Source: Winogradskyella psychrotolerans
Lineage (GTDB): Bacteria > Bacteroidota > Bacteroidia > Flavobacteriales > Flavobacteriaceae
Length of the DNA: 64,000 nucleotides
Assembly (NCBI RefSeq): GCF_018860565.1
Contig: NZ_JAHKPS010000018.1
Coordinates: forward strand, 248,001 to 312,000
Reading direction: 5' to 3'
Shown one piece after another: positions 43,882-50,610 of the stretch; within the stretch, counting starts at the first letter, position 1; every line of letters starts with the position of its first letter. The notes under the pieces were generated by a model. It ran no database searches and had not been told where the DNA came from. It was given only the letters and a program-made list of their open reading frames with translations. The translations under genes were made by a program, and so were the position numbers.

Positions 43882-44002
43882 TCTAAATTTTTCTTTTATT
43901 CTTTTTTGACATGAATTTTACTAATTCTCACTAATTCTAGTAATAATGTACAGTATTCAAATATATCAAAACTCTATATTTTATTTCAAATCAGGTTCCT
44001 AT

Positions 44003-44590
44003 CTATACAGGAATTAATAATTCATTAATCTGAGCGTATTGCAATAACATAATCGTTTTTGCATCTATAATTTCTTCGTTTTTTACCAATTCTATAGCTT
44101 TAGAAAACGGAAGTTCTAAAATTTCAATATCTTCATCTTCGCTTTCTAATCCTCCACCCTTACTTACTTTCATGGATTCATTATATTCTGCAATAAATAA
44201 GAACATTTTTTCTGTTAAAGCACCTGGCGATGTATAAGCTGTAAGAACTTGCTGAGCATTGCTTATTTTATAACCTACCTCTTCTTCTGTTTCCCTAATT
44301 ATGGTTTCTAAAGGCTTATCATTATTATCTATGGCACCTGCACAGGCCTCAATAGACATACCTTCATTTTTATTGTTTTCATAAGCTGGCATACGGAATT
44401 GTTTCGTTAGAATCACCGTTTGTTTTTTTACATTATACAGTAATATAGCAGCACCATTACCACGATTGTAACATTCGCGAGATAAACGTTTCCATTCTCC
44501 ATTTTTAAATTGATAATCGTAATCAATTCTATCTAGTCTTGCCCATTCTTTAGAAAGGGTTGTTTTAGTTATGTTTTTTAGGTTGTCCAT
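44003..44590 (-). CDS. NUDIX hydrolase (NudK/ADP-sugar pyrophosphatase type)
   Basis: A 195-residue NUDIX protein that should cleave a nucleoside-diphosphate sugar (GDP-mannose or ADP-ribose type). The NUDIX box runs from GAIDNND to RETEEEVG; the key REtEEEVG part is intact, while the first conserved Glu is Asp, as in some NudK relatives. LTAYTSPGALTEKMFLF and the AGAIDNN entry support this subfamily. I take the ATG at 44590 (MDNLKNITKT) over one five codons earlier. It sits within the AAA+ cluster, so an activated sugar or ADP-ribose signal could belong to that system. Confidence 0.85.
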   Translation of the reverse strand: MDNLKNITKTTLSKEWARLDRIDYDYQFKNGEWKRLSRECYNRGNGAAILLYNVKKQTVILTKQFRMPAYENNKNEGMSIEACAGAIDNNDKPLETIIRETEEEVGYKISNAQQVLTAYTSPGALTEKMFLFIAEYNESMKVSKGGGLESEDEDIEILELPFSKAIELVKNEEIIDAKTIMLLQYAQINELLIPV

Positions 44591-44617
44591 ATTTTTACAA
44601 AACATTCTACTTTATGT

Positions 44618-44659
44618 CATTGCCAAGTTAACTTCTTTGTTAACTGCGGCAATCTGTTT
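44618..44659 (+). repeat. 42-base dispersed intergenic repeat, copy 2
   Basis: Matches 35 of 42 bases with 41956-41997, in the same orientation, and has the same ends (CATTGC, GCAATCTGTTT). A second degenerate module (GATTCCTCGTCGCTCG, then GGAACGAC) follows at about 44683-44721, as often seen in such elements. Confidence 0.65.
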
Positions 44660-44725
44660 ATTGGTTAGGTTTTCCCTTTATGAGATTCCTCGTCGCTCGT
44701 GCCTCATTCTATCGGAACGACAAAG

Positions 44726-44753
44726 ACTACACACTTTTTACTTTACACTTTTT
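44726..44753 (+). repeat. 7-base periodic array beside the AAA+ gene
   Basis: Four gapless heptads with core ACTN (ACTACAC, ACTTTTT, ACTTTAC, ACTTTTT), then CACT. They end 12 bases before the stop of the AAA+ gene. Confidence 0.5.
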
Positions 44754-44764
44754 CACTAATAAGT

Positions 44765-46720
44765 TTACTTCCCAAACTGCGCTCTAGCCTCTGTTTCAAT
44801 ATTCAGCTGGTTCACTCTCGCATCTACTTTTCGTTTAAAGTCTGTATCTGCAATGGTTGCCACATTATCTAAATAACGAATGACTTCTTGTCTCCTTATA
44901 TCTGAAAAGTTTAAACCTTTCATATTCGATTTCATTAACTCTTGAAGCATATTAAACTTGGTATCATAATCCTTTTTAAAATAGGTTTCTGGATTCTCAA
45001 ACCAATCGTGTTCTAAATCGAAATCGGTTAACCGTAATGAAATTGCAGATTGAATATTACGTACATCTCTTGAAGAGAAGAACGGAAATATCTTCTGAAT
45101 TTCTTTATACAAAGCCGCATAAAACATATGGTCATCCGTTTCGTGAAGCTTTTCTACTTTATCAAAGGTTTCGTGAACACGTGCTTCTGAAGGATGCTCT
45201 ATGGCATTCAGAATTTCTCCCATGCTGTTTGCCAAACCTTGATCTGACAAGTATTTATAGGTTTCAGGATCGTCCATATTTACGAAATCTGGCATGGTAT
45301 TTTGCAATTTCTTCCACCAGATATAATCTTGATCTACAAAATCGTGCTCAGTACGTGCACCATCTATTTTAAATCGACCTTGCACACGAGAAATTACGGC
45401 TTTATCTAACATTTCTGGCAAGTTGGTAAACAAGCCAATAGAACTGTTACCATAATTAACGGCATAAGCACCTTCTGTGTATCTTAAAAACACACCAATG
45501 ACTTCTTTTACTCCAGCTGAAACGCCTTGAGCTGTTCGTTCTTGCAAATTATTTTCGGCATCATCAATTGGTGCAAAAATTAATTTGGTTGGGTCTTGCA
45601 ATGGCTTCATCCATTCTACCATTTTCTCGGCAGAACCACCCTGAAACGTACTAATTAATGTATCTGGCATTGGGTGAAATAAAAATGGAATATCAAGATT
45701 ATCAGAGTGCTCTTTTAGCCTAGTTGCAATGGCAGCAATCAACATACTTTTTCCTGTTCCCGGAATTCCATAACCCATAAAAACAGGCATAAAACCGCCT
45801 AATTCTTGAAATGGATTTTTCTGAGCTTCAAAATCGTAACTCAGCATACGTTCGGTTAAACGACGTGCAAAATGTTTAGCATCTCTATTTCCAACAATTT
45901 GTTCAAACTGAATTTTATTAAACTCAACACTCTTTGCTGTACCAGAAAAAGCATTTTCCCAACCAGAAACGGCAAAGTCACTATTTTCTAGCTTGTACGT
46001 TCTATCAACAATAGTTTCAGTATATTCTAAACTACTTTTACGCAATTGAATTTCACCAATTAAAGCTTCAAAATACACCATTGTAAAATCAATAACATCT
46101 TTATCTGATTTAATGATTTCTGGGTGACCTAAATACTTATCGTAATAAAACAGCTGACACGAAATTCCTTTTAAAGGTGTAAGAAACGACACTTCAGGAA
46201 TGCCTGCAAACTTCTGCTTCATTACCGATAAATCGTCTGAAGCATGTGGTTTTAAATCGTGTAGAATTTTATACGCTGTAGAAAACAACATAAAAGCAGT
46301 TGCTGTATGCATTTTACTTTCGTATTCGCGTCTTCCTGAATTATCTAATGCCGATTTATTTTCACTTAAGGACGATAAGCCTGACGCATCATAAAAACTA
46401 TCTTTTATCCAAATACCTAAAGTTATTGCTTCTTGTACAGCAAATAAAGTATGATTTAACTTTACAGGAAGTGCTACTGATTCTGGCAATAAACGTTTCT
46501 TTAAAGCCAAAATAGTTTTAGAAACAGAAATGACATTGACGTTACTTCCATTATTTGCCCTAGATAAATACAACAAAATAGATTCATCTTTAGCATCATT
46601 GTCTTTGTTTTTGGCGCGTTGACTTTGCTCCCATTGTATGGATTTTAAATACGACGTGGCTTCATCGCGAAGCATATCTAATTCATTTTGTTTTATAGGG
46701 AAAGTTGAGTTGTGTTCCAT
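44765..46720 (-). CDS. classical AAA+ ATPase with a large helical N-domain
   Basis: A 651-residue protein. The first 270 residues are helical and unlike known domains. A classical AAA module then begins: Walker A GIPGTGKS (318-325), a Walker-B-like IFAPIDDAE (381-389) with Asp-Asp instead of the common Asp-Glu, sensor 1 Asn433 in FTNLP, and Arg445/Arg449 in ISRVQGRF as Arg-finger candidates. A long helical C-terminal part follows. AAA proteins of this class remodel or unfold proteins. Neighbours are a coiled-coil protein and membrane proteins, so remodelling of a membrane-linked assembly is possible. No protease domain is present. Confidence 0.82.
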   Translation of the reverse strand: MEHNSTFPIKQNELDMLRDEATSYLKSIQWEQSQRAKNKDNDAKDESILLYLSRANNGSNVNVISVSKTILALKKRLLPESVALPVKLNHTLFAVQEAITLGIWIKDSFYDASGLSSLSENKSALDNSGRREYESKMHTATAFMLFSTAYKILHDLKPHASDDLSVMKQKFAGIPEVSFLTPLKGISCQLFYYDKYLGHPEIIKSDKDVIDFTMVYFEALIGEIQLRKSSLEYTETIVDRTYKLENSDFAVSGWENAFSGTAKSVEFNKIQFEQIVGNRDAKHFARRLTERMLSYDFEAQKNPFQELGGFMPVFMGYGIPGTGKSMLIAAIATRLKEHSDNLDIPFLFHPMPDTLISTFQGGSAEKMVEWMKPLQDPTKLIFAPIDDAENNLQERTAQGVSAGVKEVIGVFLRYTEGAYAVNYGNSSIGLFTNLPEMLDKAVISRVQGRFKIDGARTEHDFVDQDYIWWKKLQNTMPDFVNMDDPETYKYLSDQGLANSMGEILNAIEHPSEARVHETFDKVEKLHETDDHMFYAALYKEIQKIFPFFSSRDVRNIQSAISLRLTDFDLEHDWFENPETYFKKDYDTKFNMLQELMKSNMKGLNFSDIRRQEVIRYLDNVATIADTDFKRKVDARVNQLNIETEARAQFGK

Positions 46721-46724
46721 TTTT

Positions 46725-46759
46725 TAGTCTTCAGTTTAAAGTATGCAGTCTTCAGTATT
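46725..46759 (-). repeat. heptad array A, downstream of the four-helix-bundle gene
   Basis: Five gapless 7-base units read on the minus strand as NACTNNN/ACTG cores (plus strand CAGT or TAGT every 7 bases). They start 5 bases before the AAA+ start codon. Confidence 0.6.
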
Positions 46760-46789
46760 TACTGTTGCGGCTTACTCTTGCTTTTTATT

Positions 46790-46824
46790 TAATCTTCAGT
46801 TGGTAGTCTTCAGTCCTAAGTACT
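46790..46824 (-). repeat. heptad array B, downstream of the four-helix-bundle gene
   Basis: Five 7-base units on the plus strand with cores TAAT, CAGT, TAGT, CAGT and AAGT, in the same orientation as array A and opposite to array C at 47247-47281. Confidence 0.6.
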
Positions 46825-46863
46825 TACTCATACGACTTAGACTTGACAAATATTATTAAAATT

Positions 46864-47226
46864 TTATAATCCGAATTTATCAGGATATTTCATCATGTAA
46901 TTGATAAGCTTTCCTATTTCTTCACTTTTAAATTGTAATTCATTTTTCTTTTCTTCTGAAATATAATCACATGCTAAAGCAAAATCTAGCCATAATTGAG
47001 TTTCAGAGTTTTCACTGTCAGCGTCAGACAATTTGCTTTTAAAATGTTTCTCGTACTGACGTTTTCTATAGCCTTCAGCTATATTAGAACAAACAGATCT
47101 ACTCGAACGTACCATCTGTGATGTTAATCCAAACATTTCAGATTTAGGAAACGCTTTAGTTAAATGAAATATTTCCATTGCTAAATCGAATCCTTTTTGA
47201 TAAGCCAATAATGTTTTAAACGACAT
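46864..47226 (-). CDS. four-helix-bundle protein (S23/IVP family)
   Basis: A 120-residue protein of the four-helix-bundle family first known from intervening sequences in 23S rRNA genes and related to the Avd accessory protein of diversity-generating retroelements. Family hallmarks are FGLTSQMVRSS (32-42), SNIAEGY (47-53) and ETQLWLDFA (75-83). It is basic and probably binds nucleic acid. There is no reverse transcriptase or 23S rRNA gene nearby. It interrupts the AAA+ cluster and is bracketed by inverted heptad arrays, which suggests it was inserted as a cassette. Confidence 0.88.
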   Translation of the reverse strand: MSFKTLLAYQKGFDLAMEIFHLTKAFPKSEMFGLTSQMVRSSRSVCSNIAEGYRKRQYEKHFKSKLSDADSENSETQLWLDFALACDYISEEKKNELQFKSEEIGKLINYMMKYPDKFGL

Positions 47227-47246
47227 ATTAATATTTACTGATTCTA

Positions 47247-47281
47247 ACTGCTAACTGAGGACTGCACACTGCAGACTCATT
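47247..47281 (+). repeat. heptad array C, upstream of the four-helix-bundle gene
   Basis: Five gapless units with cores ACTG, ACTG, ACTG, ACTG and ACTC. The last overlaps the stop of the 347-residue gene. Another ACTG precedes at 47237, out of phase by three bases. The orientation is opposite to arrays A and B. Confidence 0.65.
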
Positions 47282-48320
47282 CCATTTTTAATTCAGAAAT
47301 CTGAACTGGTGACATTGCCAACTTATTCATAATTTCAGGTGTTTTATTATATAGTAACTGTATGATTCGATGTGGCGCAAAAACGTAGCGTTGCCTAAAC
47401 ATAGCGTCCCAACGTTGATACGTTTGTTTACTAAAAAAACCACCTTCTTTAAATTCGCTTCCCGATTTTAATTCGTCTACTTTTAGTGAAATCGCATAAG
47501 ATTCTAAAGGAATTTCTTTATTTGCAATGCCTTGTAAAATGGCATGTGTCACTTTATTTTCATCCTTAGCAAACACATTATGAATTGGTCCTAAATCTAC
47601 ACGTTTTATCAGTTTTGGTAATACTTTTGGCAAACGCTTATCTATACCGTAAGCCATAGTATCTAAAGCCATTTCTCGGTCTGCAATAGACTTTAAAGCA
47701 CTGTATATTTCACTGCGTTCTTTTAGAGGATCTTTGCCATCGTAATCAAAATACATGTAGCAAATGAATGGTCTGTTGTGAGACACATCATAGAAGCTCC
47801 AGCTTACTAAATATTCAGCCGCTGAACCTTCTGGTGCTGCTATTATTTTACCTTGAACAAAACGATTAAAAATATATTCTTTTTTGGCCGAGGTATAATA
47901 CACTATTGAAGCTGCCTGAAAGAGCTTACGTTTAGCAATAGGTTCTTTCTTTCGCATCAAAGTGTCTAGAAATTCTTCTTTTAGCGTTTCTACATCTGTA
48001 AGCTTACCTAAGTAATCTTCTCGTAATGCTAAATCATTAAACAAATAGCGGAATTCTAAATAATTAGGAAAGCTAGAGTCCGTTAAATCTACTTTCATGT
48101 TTTCCTCTTCGTCATACATATATTTTACACGCATGGCTTCAATGGAATACAGCAACAAATCACTGTATTGCTTAAACAAGAGTACTTCTTGTTGATTTAG
48201 AATTTGTTTTTGTTGTACAGCTACAATAAGCTCCTTTAATGCAAAATCTATCATTCTGTGATAGAACACATATTGTTCTTTGGAATCTAATATGGCGGAA
48301 TCTAATGGTGTTACTATCAT
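47277..48320 (-). CDS. unknown soluble protein of the AAA+ cluster, 347 residues
   Basis: A soluble, mostly helical N-terminal half (about 1-170) and a mixed C-terminal half. No signal peptide, membrane segment or catalytic motif is seen. The C-terminal region FGGFF-like EFKEGGFFSKQTYQRW and the helical FAPHRIIQLLYNK are distinctive but not familiar. It lies between the coiled-coil protein and the AAA+ protein, so it could be an adaptor between them. Its C-terminal stop codon is overlapped by a heptad array. I cannot name a family. Confidence 0.65.
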   Translation of the reverse strand: MIVTPLDSAILDSKEQYVFYHRMIDFALKELIVAVQQKQILNQQEVLLFKQYSDLLLYSIEAMRVKYMYDEEENMKVDLTDSSFPNYLEFRYLFNDLALREDYLGKLTDVETLKEEFLDTLMRKKEPIAKRKLFQAASIVYYTSAKKEYIFNRFVQGKIIAAPEGSAAEYLVSWSFYDVSHNRPFICYMYFDYDGKDPLKERSEIYSALKSIADREMALDTMAYGIDKRLPKVLPKLIKRVDLGPIHNVFAKDENKVTHAILQGIANKEIPLESYAISLKVDELKSGSEFKEGGFFSKQTYQRWDAMFRQRYVFAPHRIIQLLYNKTPEIMNKLAMSPVQISELKME

Positions 48321-48322
48321 TT

Positions 48323-48357
48323 TTGTAGGCCGTTGGCAGTATTCAGTTTGTAGTATA
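48323..48357 (-). repeat. heptad array D1
   Basis: Five 7-base units on the plus strand with cores TTGT, CCGT, CAGT, CAGT and TAGT, beginning two bases before the 347-residue gene's start codon (minus strand). Confidence 0.55.
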
Positions 48358-48413
48358 CCAAGAATACCTGAAAAGTATTATTTAAAAATATATTGAATAT
48401 ATAGTATTAGTCA

Positions 48414-48451
48414 CAGTATTCAGTCTTCATTTGACTGTTAACTGAATACTG
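48414..48451. repeat. 11-base inverted repeat inside the heptad region
   Basis: CAGTATTCAGT (48414-48424) and its exact reverse complement ACTGAATACTG (48441-48451) are separated by 16 bases. This is the point where the arrays change orientation. Confidence 0.65.
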
Positions 48452-48468
48452 CTGACTTACAACTTATT
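48434..48468 (+). repeat. heptad array D3
   Basis: Five gapless 7-base units with cores ACTG, ACTG, ACTG, ACTT and ACTT, ending one base before the stop of the coiled-coil gene. It faces array D1. Confidence 0.6.
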
Positions 48469-48469
48469 A

Positions 48470-49813
48470 TTATCCTAAAAGGTCATCTTCGTTTGCTTCT
48501 GGTTTTGGTTCGCCAGCTGGCTCTCCTCCGTCACCTGAAGGTGCGTTTGCATCTGCTGCGTAGTAATCTTCAAAAATTTCTTTCATATCAATGCCGTAAC
48601 GCTCAGCAAAATTCTTTTGAATAGACTTATCCTTTTCTCTAATTTCACTTAAAGCTTCAGCATAACTTCCGTAAACGCCCTGCATAACTTTTTCGTGCAC
48701 TGGAATATTATCCATCATTTCTTGACGTGCTCTAGCACTTGCCGTATGCATTGCGGCTAAAGTTTCACCAATATGCTCGTCTGTCTTAACACCTAAATGC
48801 TCTAAAATTGCTGCGAATTCCTGATCTGTACGTGCTTTTAAAGCTACCACATAACCATCGTAATATTTAAGACGCTCGTCTGTATCTGACTTTAATTTTG
48901 CACGATGCGTTTGTAAGTTACTACGTAAAGATGTTAATACTTTAATGGTTAAGTTATGTTTATGAACAAAACTATCTTTAGAAGCTGCTAATGTGGTATA
49001 AGCATTTTTAAGGCCTTCTAATTCTTCAACTTTTTGCTCTAAGGTGGTTACTTTACTTAAAGCATCTGAATAATCTGTAGATTGTTTATCGGCCACTTCT
49101 TCTAAAGCTTGACGTGCTTGTTTTAGTAGCGCATATTGCTCTTCAAGCTTATCCTCTACTTCTTTTTTCTTTTGAAGTGCTTTGGTATGATTGTTAGACG
49201 CTTCAACAATAGCTGTTTTAAGACTTTCTTCGACTTCTTTTATTTCGATTTCTCTATCTTTTAAACGCTTAATTGCAGCCTGACTCTTAAATGATAATTC
49301 ATTTAATAAGGTTTGAACATCTGCCGTTTCAATACGTTGTTGAAACATTGCTTTTGCTTTATTGTCTGATGCATCACGTTCTTTTTGAGCATTTTGAAGT
49401 TCTTGCTCAGCATCTTTAATCTTACTTTTACGTCCCCAAAGATTGTTCCACCACGTGTCTGGTTTATTATTTGCATCTTCAAGTTCTACTTTTGCGCGCT
49501 CTAAACGCTTAACGGCATCATCAATGATTTTTTGCTCAGCTGCGTTTAATGCTGAAAAGCCTTCAAACATAATACCAACTTCGTCCTGATAATCTGTTAA
49601 GTCTTTAATGGCATCTAATAAAGTAGTTCTATCTTTTTCGGCCATATCTACCACATTATCTAAGGTGGCATTTAATATTTTCTGACGACTTTCAGGATCA
49701 TCTTCTTGTGCCAATTTAGACTTCATTTGGTCTATGGCTTTTCCCCAATTGACATCAACTTTCGCTGCTTTTTCGTTGGAACTTGTTTCTAATAAATCAA
49801 AATCATCAGACAT
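48470..49813 (-). CDS. long coiled-coil protein, first gene of the AAA+ cluster
   Basis: A 447-residue cytoplasmic protein, almost all helix, with heptad-rich coiled coils through about residues 70-330 broken at PDTWWNNLWGRKSK (about 118-131). The C-terminal tail is acidic and Gly/Pro-rich (GDGGEPAGEPKPEANEDDLLG). It lacks membrane segments. Relatives in flavobacteria may appear as 'microtubule-binding' or 'cell surface' proteins, neither of which the sequence supports. It is first in a unidirectional cluster ahead of the AAA+ ATPase, so it could be its substrate or scaffold. A link to TelA or PspA-like proteins is possible but unproven. Confidence 0.7.
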   Translation of the reverse strand: MSDDFDLLETSSNEKAAKVDVNWGKAIDQMKSKLAQEDDPESRQKILNATLDNVVDMAEKDRTTLLDAIKDLTDYQDEVGIMFEGFSALNAAEQKIIDDAVKRLERAKVELEDANNKPDTWWNNLWGRKSKIKDAEQELQNAQKERDASDNKAKAMFQQRIETADVQTLLNELSFKSQAAIKRLKDREIEIKEVEESLKTAIVEASNNHTKALQKKKEVEDKLEEQYALLKQARQALEEVADKQSTDYSDALSKVTTLEQKVEELEGLKNAYTTLAASKDSFVHKHNLTIKVLTSLRSNLQTHRAKLKSDTDERLKYYDGYVVALKARTDQEFAAILEHLGVKTDEHIGETLAAMHTASARARQEMMDNIPVHEKVMQGVYGSYAEALSEIREKDKSIQKNFAERYGIDMKEIFEDYYAADANAPSGDGGEPAGEPKPEANEDDLLG

Positions 49814-50220
49814 ATTGTGTGTGGTATTTGGTTGAACTATTTTCTGTAAAGCAATTTCGGTATTTTTTTAAGACTATAAAAACTTTACTTACTAAAATAT
49901 ATGTAGTCATACTTTTAACATTGTTACAACTTTCTTACTATTTTTTTAATATCTATGACACTACACCTACCAAATCTTATTAATACCATATTTGTCATTT
50001 TATGGCATTATAACGAATTGTAGAACTGTTAAAATTTGATTTATTAACAAATAACTTAATGTTGATTTTCGCTTAGAAACACTGTGTTTCGTCGGACATT
50101 ATAAACGCTTAATCGATAAATTTGTTGATTAAAAATTGTAAATATTTTAATATTAAGTATTTAACATTAAGTTTTTTTCTATCTTAGCATTCTAGAACCC
50201 AATTCTAAAACCATACTTAT
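49814..50220. other. gene-free gap between the coiled-coil gene and a small membrane-protein gene
   Basis: A 407-base AT-rich divergent region. It holds a 15-base hyphenated palindrome, GAAACAC-T-GTGTTTC (50076-50090), that could be an operator, and a TATCTTAG box shortly before the plus-strand gene. No RNA gene or repeat was recognised. Confidence 0.5.
50076..50090. promoter_or_regulatory. 15-base palindrome
   Basis: GAAACAC and GTGTTTC flank a single T. It is a candidate operator for one of the divergent genes; no matching second copy was seen nearby. Confidence 0.35.
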
Positions 50221-50445
50221 ATGTTTAGTAACCTGCTTTCCAAAGCCTTAATTGTGACGACTACGCAACTTACTATGATTTTAATAGCTGTAGCGTCCAT
50301 TTTTCTCGTTTTTATTCTTATAGCTATTTTGAAGATGTATAAGTTAAAAGCTGAAAACAAAAAATTAATGCAAACCAATGCTTATAAAGATTACGAAGAA
50401 TCCAATCAAGATATTCCTAGTGGACATCTTTATGGAGACAACTAA
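50221..50445 (+). CDS. small single-pass membrane protein
   Basis: A 74-residue protein with one strong transmembrane helix (about 16-38) followed by a short charged helix (MYKLKAENKKLMQ) and an acidic tail. It is probably real, since it has a clear ATG, a promoter-like box upstream and a shared terminator downstream. Function unknown. It is divergent from the AAA+ cluster, but no direct link is shown. Confidence 0.6.
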   Translation: MFSNLLSKALIVTTTQLTMILIAVASIFLVFILIAILKMYKLKAENKKLMQTNAYKDYEESNQDIPSGHLYGDN

Positions 50446-50610
50446 AGCAGTTATTTAAAAACTAAATTTATCCGTTTTTATGGGCTGTTTTAACAAAGGC
50501 TACTTATAACATCGTTACTACTTATAAGTTAGATTTGGTCATTTCTCTTAAATCCCACAAATTAAAATCAATACTAAAACATTTAGAAAACAATCTCATT
50601 TATATATCAT

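Follow-up and report, generated by a model that had tools for sequence, protein, structure and literature searches.

Why should a short gene for a four-helix-bundle protein, set between two other protein genes, be bracketed by rows of seven-nucleotide repeats that run in opposite senses on its two sides, and what reads these rows? The question is raised by a locus in the window (the whole stretch of DNA that was analysed, 64 kb from Winogradskyella psychrotolerans), where a 347-aa gene (P347, used below as a marker of the locus), the four-helix gene and an AAA ATPase gene all lie on one strand, with the four-helix gene in the middle (Table 1). The 120-aa product is a clear member of the PF05635 family (114.9 bits against a cut-off of 33.8) and matches TIGR02436 as well (107.6 bits, cut-off 24), while the PADLOC anti-phage models give no match for it. 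Its AF2 model (pLDDT 96.9) consists of four long helices and one short helix, and the best fold matches are 2gsc, which is the Xanthomonas protein XCC0516 in the PDB, and 2rld, followed by the Avd protein 4dwl with TM values of 0.80/0.89. Both 2rld and 2gsc, relatives with solved structures, comprise five chains each, these being crystal entries whose state in solution may differ. The closest named homologues belong to Winogradskyella and related genera.

Table 1. Genes and repeat arrays around the four-helix gene (positions within the window)
Feature	Position	Strand	Basis
AAA ATPase (PF00004), downstream neighbour of the four-helix gene	44765..46720	-	Pfam
Array A: TAGT/CAGT/AAGT/CAGT/CAGT, five heptads; in gene orientation the 3' arm, ACTG sense	46725..46759	+	heptad scan
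Array B: TAAT/CAGT/TAGT/CAGT/AAGT, five weaker heptads; also 3' of the gene	46790..46824	+	heptad scan
Four-helix-bundle protein gene, 120 aa (PF05635 23S_rRNA_IVP / TIGR02436)	46864..47226	-	profile scores
Array C: four ACTG and one ACTC, five heptads; in gene orientation the 5' arm, CAGT sense	47247..47281	+	heptad scan
P347, 347-aa upstream neighbour, locus marker; no Pfam/NCBIfam match	47277..48320	-	profile scans
Array at the P347 start; reads in the ACTG sense along the coding strand; without a four-helix gene	48330..48354	-	heptad scan
Inverted pair without a gene: runs of CAGT (48414-48438) and ACTG (48434-48465) just past the UP447 stop codon	48414..48465	.	heptad scan
UP447, next upstream gene, 447 aa; no Pfam/NCBIfam match	48470..49813	-	profile scans

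Three arrays surround the gene. A and B share one sense and C has the opposite one, B being the weakest of the three; their cores start at 46725-46753 in A and at 46790-46818 in B. For C, the original prediction had placed the cores at 47247, 47254, 47261, 47268 and 47275, and this is borne out, the last core being ACTC. Each of the three holds five in-register heptads, with C opposite in sense as had been predicted, and chance gives almost none of this: six heptad runs scoring at least 9 were found in the 64 kb against a mean of 0.17 and a maximum of two in 60 first-order Markov resamplings, and three runs scoring at least 14 against none in the resamplings. As a control, permuted cores that are not rotations gave zero or one run each in the window. 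Array C overlaps the stop codon of P347, and the start codon of the AAA gene lies a few bases past the end of array A. All six runs are confined to two gene junctions, 46718-46821 together with 47247-47278, and 48330-48465; the latter, between the 447-aa and 347-aa genes, bears array arms with no gene between them and had escaped the earlier reading. The three arrays are not perfect direct repeats of TAACTGA, their spacers varying from one unit to the next. A search with Rfam returned nothing at the P347–AAA junction and no rRNA match in 44000-50500; one sub-threshold match to a CRISPR repeat lies elsewhere.

Such bracketing is not peculiar to this locus. A scan of genome contigs yielded 77 homologous loci, in which the same junction was assigned wherever a match to P347 or the AAA gene lay within 6 kb. 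Up to 400 bp from the gene, CAGT/ACTG runs have a density of 2.09 per kb, versus 0.029 per kb farther away. A CAGT array upstream and an ACTG array downstream occur together at 49 of the 77 loci (38 of 41 at the P347–AAA junction and 11 of 36 elsewhere), so the opposite-sense bracketing that had been noticed here extends, far beyond chance, to the four-helix family in other genera and at other sites. Neither ACTG-type arm is present in 18 of the 36 homologues away from the P347–AAA junction. The neighbours were read for twelve of these 36 loci (the eleven two-armed ones and L120): seven lie at an ffh–folD junction, and the rest lie between sufC–sufD-like, enoyl-CoA hydratase–carboxylase-like or sugar-nucleotide genes, as named from their sequences. 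At L301, the 3' end of the P347 coding sequence contains the upstream array.

The family at large gives a broader picture. The window's own genome carries six PF05635 genes, and CAGT/ACTG runs are found within 1.5 kb of the focal gene only; heptads of other cores accompany two of the other five, a longer repeat accompanies one, and nothing is visible at the remaining two. At L002 1265-1490, a four-helix gene of this genome is preceded by a longer tandem repeat whose unit, rich in TTAGA, measures some tens of bases. For the genus, 100 stretches were taken down a ranked list (among the matches listed, some being skipped), four stretches of the own genome being added on purpose; they contain 106 four-helix genes, and 103 remained after three under 95 aa had been dropped. 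Subfamilies (clades) are here average-linkage clusters of protein identity, not branches of a tree. In the first 40 stretches, periods of 7 and 8 nt are each enriched in the flanks, with 18 of 80 passing a threshold that only 0.5% of far blocks (14/2771) reach; 11 of the 80 flanks pass for period 4, which is a harmonic of 8, four pass for period 11, and none or one for periods 5, 6, 9, 10 and 12.

The two arms were compared by aligning the 160 nt upstream of each gene with the reverse complement of the 160 nt downstream, at the 99% level of shuffled sequences. Complementary arms were found at 38 of the 103 sampled genes versus three of 103 in the direct-comparison control, and the other 65 have no significant arm match. 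With arms swapped between loci, 42% of comparisons match within a subfamily and 1.25% between subfamilies; even for one subfamily at different sites, 21% of 62 comparisons match. When each group of one subfamily at one site is counted once, inverted matches are seen in 16 of 32 groups versus direct ones in 3 of 32 (95% level). The same stretches contain 1083 other genes that do not adjoin a four-helix gene; of these, 65 pass in the inverted and 8.3% in the direct comparison, so that inversion has no advantage there. Other genes with both gaps of at least 60 bp pass in 39 of 327 cases, which is above the shuffle level and below the 38 of 103 for four-helix genes (p 8e-8).

The fitted cores are cAGT (period 7), TTaGA (8), GTGAngcg (8), tTnGTTg (7), tTTaGCt (7) and gATTnGT (7), where tTnGTTg is the core of clade 14 and tTTaGCt that of clade 23; the core of clade 24 is weak. 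The core thus differs between protein subfamilies and agrees between both arms. In clades 14 and 16, as read from the printed sequences, the downstream array enters the first codons of the next gene. At L163, L178, L182, L191, L196, L217 and the clade-16 loci, the N-terminus of the neighbour (metH-like or rluA-like, as read from the sequence) is partly encoded by the repeat.

Matching arms are also encountered outside the genus. They were detected (p <=0.01) in 17 of 30 high-scoring PF05635 loci of the phylum, a non-random set drawn from among the best-scoring ones, and in 15 of 24 plasmid loci (21 of these 24 are cyanobacterial), analysed out of 46 plasmid records with a match; direct-sense arms were found in five of the 24. 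On an Azospirillum plasmid, a complete 23S rRNA gene contains the IVP gene, flanked by inverted heptads that form its arms, and this case is a canonical intervening sequence (IVS). Four-helix genes at L266, L403, L408 and L411, all on cyanobacterial plasmids, sit at junctions of CRISPR-cas operons (cas6–cas4, cas2–cas1, cas10–cmr3).

The architecture of the focal element is that of an rRNA IVS. In 23S rRNA IVSs, inverted repeats enclose an ORF of the same protein family (S23/IVP); in Coxiella, according to the accessible text of PMC4990558, this ORF is preceded by tandem heptamers of variable number. The element considered here differs in that it lies between protein genes and not inside a 23S rRNA gene, that each arm is an array whose spacers are free and whose core depends on the subfamily, and that there are dispersed arrays without a gene.

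The number of units in an array is informative as well. Five is the commonest size in the focal subfamily, in two other subfamilies and in the sampled gene-less heterogeneous arrays. Beside the focal subfamily, the count is exactly five in 36 of the 59 arrays downstream of the gene and in 22 of the 54 upstream of it, compared with 9 of 36 arrays far from the gene at the same loci (p 0.0007 versus downstream, p 0.17 versus upstream), and five plus five units in 18 of 48 two-armed loci. Clade 14 has five units in 12 of 12 arms (orthologous sites) and clade 23 in 14 of 20. There is no five-unit rule in clades 16, 17 and 19, which hold 2-22 units, or in clade 24, with two to four, and the genus set includes nine clade-1 genes, mostly from sibling groups, that show no peak at five. 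Gene-less heterogeneous arrays from 44 sampled loci have five units in 25 of 49 cases, four in nine and six in six, these loci having been picked by a pattern of four perfect units, so that shorter arrays are unfairly represented; gene-less homogeneous arrays have five units in 2 of 11 (p 0.09 versus heterogeneous). Throughout the five-unit arms, AGT is near-invariant in all units and the spacers vary.

How, then, could these observations be joined? The gene and its two arms may be regarded as one unit, an IVS-like element placed where two protein genes adjoin. The arms would be rows of 7- or 8-nt units, each with a conserved core and free spacers, rather than plain inverted repeats, and the four-helix protein, a pentameric ring by homology with its crystallized relatives, would read the core with one unit per protomer. 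Five units would then make up one site, and the gene would lie between two sites facing each other, one in each arm; pairing of the arms in the transcript could moreover enclose the ORF. As for the gene-less pairs found at other stop/start junctions, they might be further sites of the same protein or derivatives of the element. We infer that rings of this protein probably read cognate arrays within an IVS-like element at gene junctions, and we lean to the same degree towards RNA rather than DNA as the molecule on which the protein acts. A match of five protomers to five units would be the simplest reading of the count.

Two known proteins help to picture such an activity. TRAP is a ring protein that reads evenly spaced RNA repeats; its fold is unrelated to that of the four-helix protein, and the likeness would lie in the proposed logic of one repeat unit per protomer. 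Avd of the diversity-generating retroelements is a pentamer, although no account of that pentamer came up in the literature covered, and it shares its fold (4dwl) with the protein studied here.

If the protein reads arrays, a link in trans might be expected between a gene and arrays located elsewhere in the genome. The octad GTGANNNG repeated four times is present in nine of 60 genus genomes, exactly the nine that have a clade-17 gene (identity at least 78% in those nine; the next best elsewhere is 72%). Arrays of GTGANNNG away from the gene, 4-29 units long, occur in four of the nine genomes with the clade-17 gene versus none of the 51 others (p 2.6e-4). For the clade-19 core in trans, the figures are two of three genomes with the gene versus 14 of 57 without it (p 0.17, with three gene-bearing genomes only).

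For the ACTG core, the association is looser. Perfect four-unit ACTG arrays are present in nine of nine genomes with an intact gene (the gene's own arrays being counted) versus 31 of 51 without it; the arrays thus also occur where the gene is missing, which tells in part against the tie between arrays and gene family that had been put forward. Part of the signal in gene-less genomes is plain microsatellite: in G033, which has no PF05635 match, 21 of the 22 ACTG matches listed are homogeneous ACTGCTA repeats. In G030, the sole fourfold ACTG match among the matches listed is at the gene itself. When the genomes were probed for heterogeneous arrays (none of the reversed controls gave a match), seven of nine with the gene were positive versus 17 of 51 without it; after removal of the gene's own arrays, six of nine remain (p 0.07). 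As a trans marker of the gene, ACTG arrays are thus weak, the association not being significant once these own arrays are removed.

The gene-less arrays have a characteristic position. In G011, the intergenic space at two junctions (L333 and L336) holds five heptads of CAGT and five of ACTG, exactly. Among 46 gene-less loci, starts that follow an array have it in the ACTG sense in 19 cases and in the CAGT sense in one; stops that precede an array have it in the CAGT sense in 24 cases and in the ACTG sense in six, and 13 arrays are near neither. The distance from the end of an array to the start codon is mostly 4-10 nt in the gene-less loci. This strand-specific rule was considered as evidence on RNA versus DNA and set aside, because a palindromic pair that fills the gap predicts the same rule, which therefore tells nothing on that matter. 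The genes on both sides are co-directional in 22 cases, convergent in ten and divergent in two, 11 arrays at locus edges being left out; the convergent context is enriched (p 0.005), and the shortage of divergent cases does not reach significance (p 0.42).

The best-surviving competitor is a mobile DNA cassette, in which the arrays would be terminal inverted repeats cut by a transposase acting in trans and the gene-less pairs would be non-autonomous copies. It was as cassette ends that the original prediction had read the arrays, and part of that picture holds, since opposite-sense arrays do bracket the gene and empty sites do exist. P347 is present in 56 genus genomes, 54 of which have a readable junction, one partial match having been left out and the junction of G056 lying at a contig end. 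The gene is found there in ten of the 54 (the own genome included; the copy of G049 is decayed, with stops) and is absent from 44, so that it is not universal at this place. The gap is below 200 bp at 34 of the 44 gene-less junctions, and a run scoring at least 9 is present in only four of these 34; many of the printed gene-less junctions show shorter or irregular CAGT/ACTG hairpins. On the P347 tree, gene presence changes eight times, at least six of these changes being required by branches with good support. Within sister pairs the state differs too (G011 with the gene and G034 without it; G037 with it and G042 without it), and the gene-less junctions of G034 and G042 retain CAGT/ACTG stretches, partly with a 6-nt spacing. 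The existence of gene-less inverted pairs, the use of several different junctions and the restriction of the dispersed clade-17 arrays to genomes with the clade-17 gene also suit a cassette. The same is true of the outermost unit, which is alike in both arms, usually (A/T)AGT where the inner units are CAGT (upstream A in 16 and T in three of 21; downstream T in 22 and A in six of 33).

What fails is recent mobility. The order P347–gene–AAA recurs in 41 of the 77 homologous loci, in many genera, and silent-site identity over these 41 loci is 0.52 for the four-helix gene, 0.47 for P347 and 0.45 for the AAA gene, with 78-91% protein identity to the four-helix protein of the window. Since the order is the same and the silent sites have diverged like those of the neighbours, the gene is old at this junction and stays in place, kept by selection on the protein and often lost. 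Inheritance at the P347–AAA junction is vertical, with losses, and more than one junction is used; loss or replacement has been repeated, and relocation has occurred but is rare, ffh–folD being the second conserved junction. Gene-less five-unit arrays share at most one of their four spacers in 286 of 296 pairs, and so they are not recent copies of one another. Moreover, Pfam scans of the four-helix gene and of its seven neighbours, three of which match no family, revealed neither a transposase nor an integrase. REP palindromes and RAYT transposases are a familiar case of a protein family with cognate dispersed palindromic repeats; unlike in that system, no nuclease domain was matched by Pfam in the four-helix gene or its seven neighbours. 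On balance, a mobile cassette seems unlikely.

The P347–AAA junction has other occupants as well. Unrelated genes are found there at L022, L026, L043, L300, L302, L304, L305 and L315, which gives it the look of a landing site, and the ORFs that replace the gene in congeners are, by reading, sulfotransferase-like and lipoprotein-like. At L046 and L049, another palindromic repeat (of the CGTCATAACGAAG type) takes the place of the heptads.

Less probable still is the idea that the arms serve only as an RNA stem, a substrate of RNase III that lets the ORF be cut out of the mRNA, with a protein that does not read the arrays. It has a precedent in the Coxiella IVS: according to the accessible text of PMC4990558, RNase III excises this IVS, its ends form a stem of 28 bp, and its protein is seemingly not made. 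The predicted fold of the window's transcript (z -3.0) likewise has the arms paired around the ORF. However, within a subfamily the two arms of one locus match no better than arms taken from different loci (medians 95 and 98.5), the core follows the protein subfamily, and the protein sequence is conserved in spite of the diverged silent sites. A covarying stem was looked for and rejected: the spacers of the two arms show no covariation in register (p 0.5), and in free register there is a slight excess over swapped arms (p 0.08). A conserved core with free spacers and no in-register covariation favours a protein that reads the core over selection for a long perfect stem.

It is very improbable that the repeats are a byproduct, made by slippage and template switching at permissive junctions where four-helix genes happen to lie by chance. 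The acceptance of other genes and other repeats by the P347–AAA junction, the homogeneous heptad repeats without a gene and the matching flanks of some control genes would be in keeping with such an origin, but it would not lead one to expect a specificity for periods 7 and 8, cores that differ by subfamily or a peak at five units in heterogeneous arrays. Finally, that the protein is an Avd and the locus part of a diversity-generating retroelement is scarcely credible, for besides the fold match to 4dwl there is a weak bAvd match (46.3 bits, Pfam cut-off 40), whereas the NCBIfam Avd equivalog is missed by far (33.3 bits versus a cut-off of 80) and Pfam finds no reverse transcriptase among the seven neighbouring genes.

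Returning to rings that read cognate arrays, the wider literature on heptads is of interest. Direct TAACTGA heptads have been described in Beggiatoaceae, cyanobacteria and Bacteroidetes (MacGregor 2015, PMC4679880); in Beggiatoaceae, according to the accessible text, they lie mostly in forward sense just before start codons, S1, Csp and Csr being named as candidate binders, and in one Bacteroidetes genome a set is reversed after a stop codon. Like the arrays considered here, these are intergenic heptads that contain ACTG; unlike here, the work searched for one fixed heptamer, and its accessible text describes no paired arms around a gene. Nor do "helix bundle", "S23" or "intervening" appear in that text, and four-helix proteins are not among the binders it names. 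GGGAATC and GGGGA(C/T)T heptads are known too (Rehm 2015, PMC4692102, as accessible), and a Flavobacterium genome paper, in its accessible part, simply lists four-helix genes (PMC5524665). Heptamers are reported to be the most abundant intergenic repeats, of unknown function (PMC6344855, presumably Mori 2018, as accessible). In the literature covered, mostly open-access, no paper was found in which a general connection is drawn between four-helix genes and inverted arrays of a cognate core.

It is tempting, if only as a tentative extension that we hold to be possible rather than probable, to regard PF05635 proteins as a large class of ring-shaped array readers, each with its own 7- or 8-nt unit read by one protomer; intergenic heptamers would then be in part their sites, and the rRNA intervening sequences would be one case. 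If this is true, the commonest periodic repeat of bacterial genomes, which is without known function, may have a protein partner, and a protein family with many natural repeat codes could supply practical sequence-specific binders. As to the variety of the repeats themselves, long arrays at G006:C2:825453-825963 consist of alternating GATTAGT and GATTGGT, with an apparent super-unit of 14 nt.
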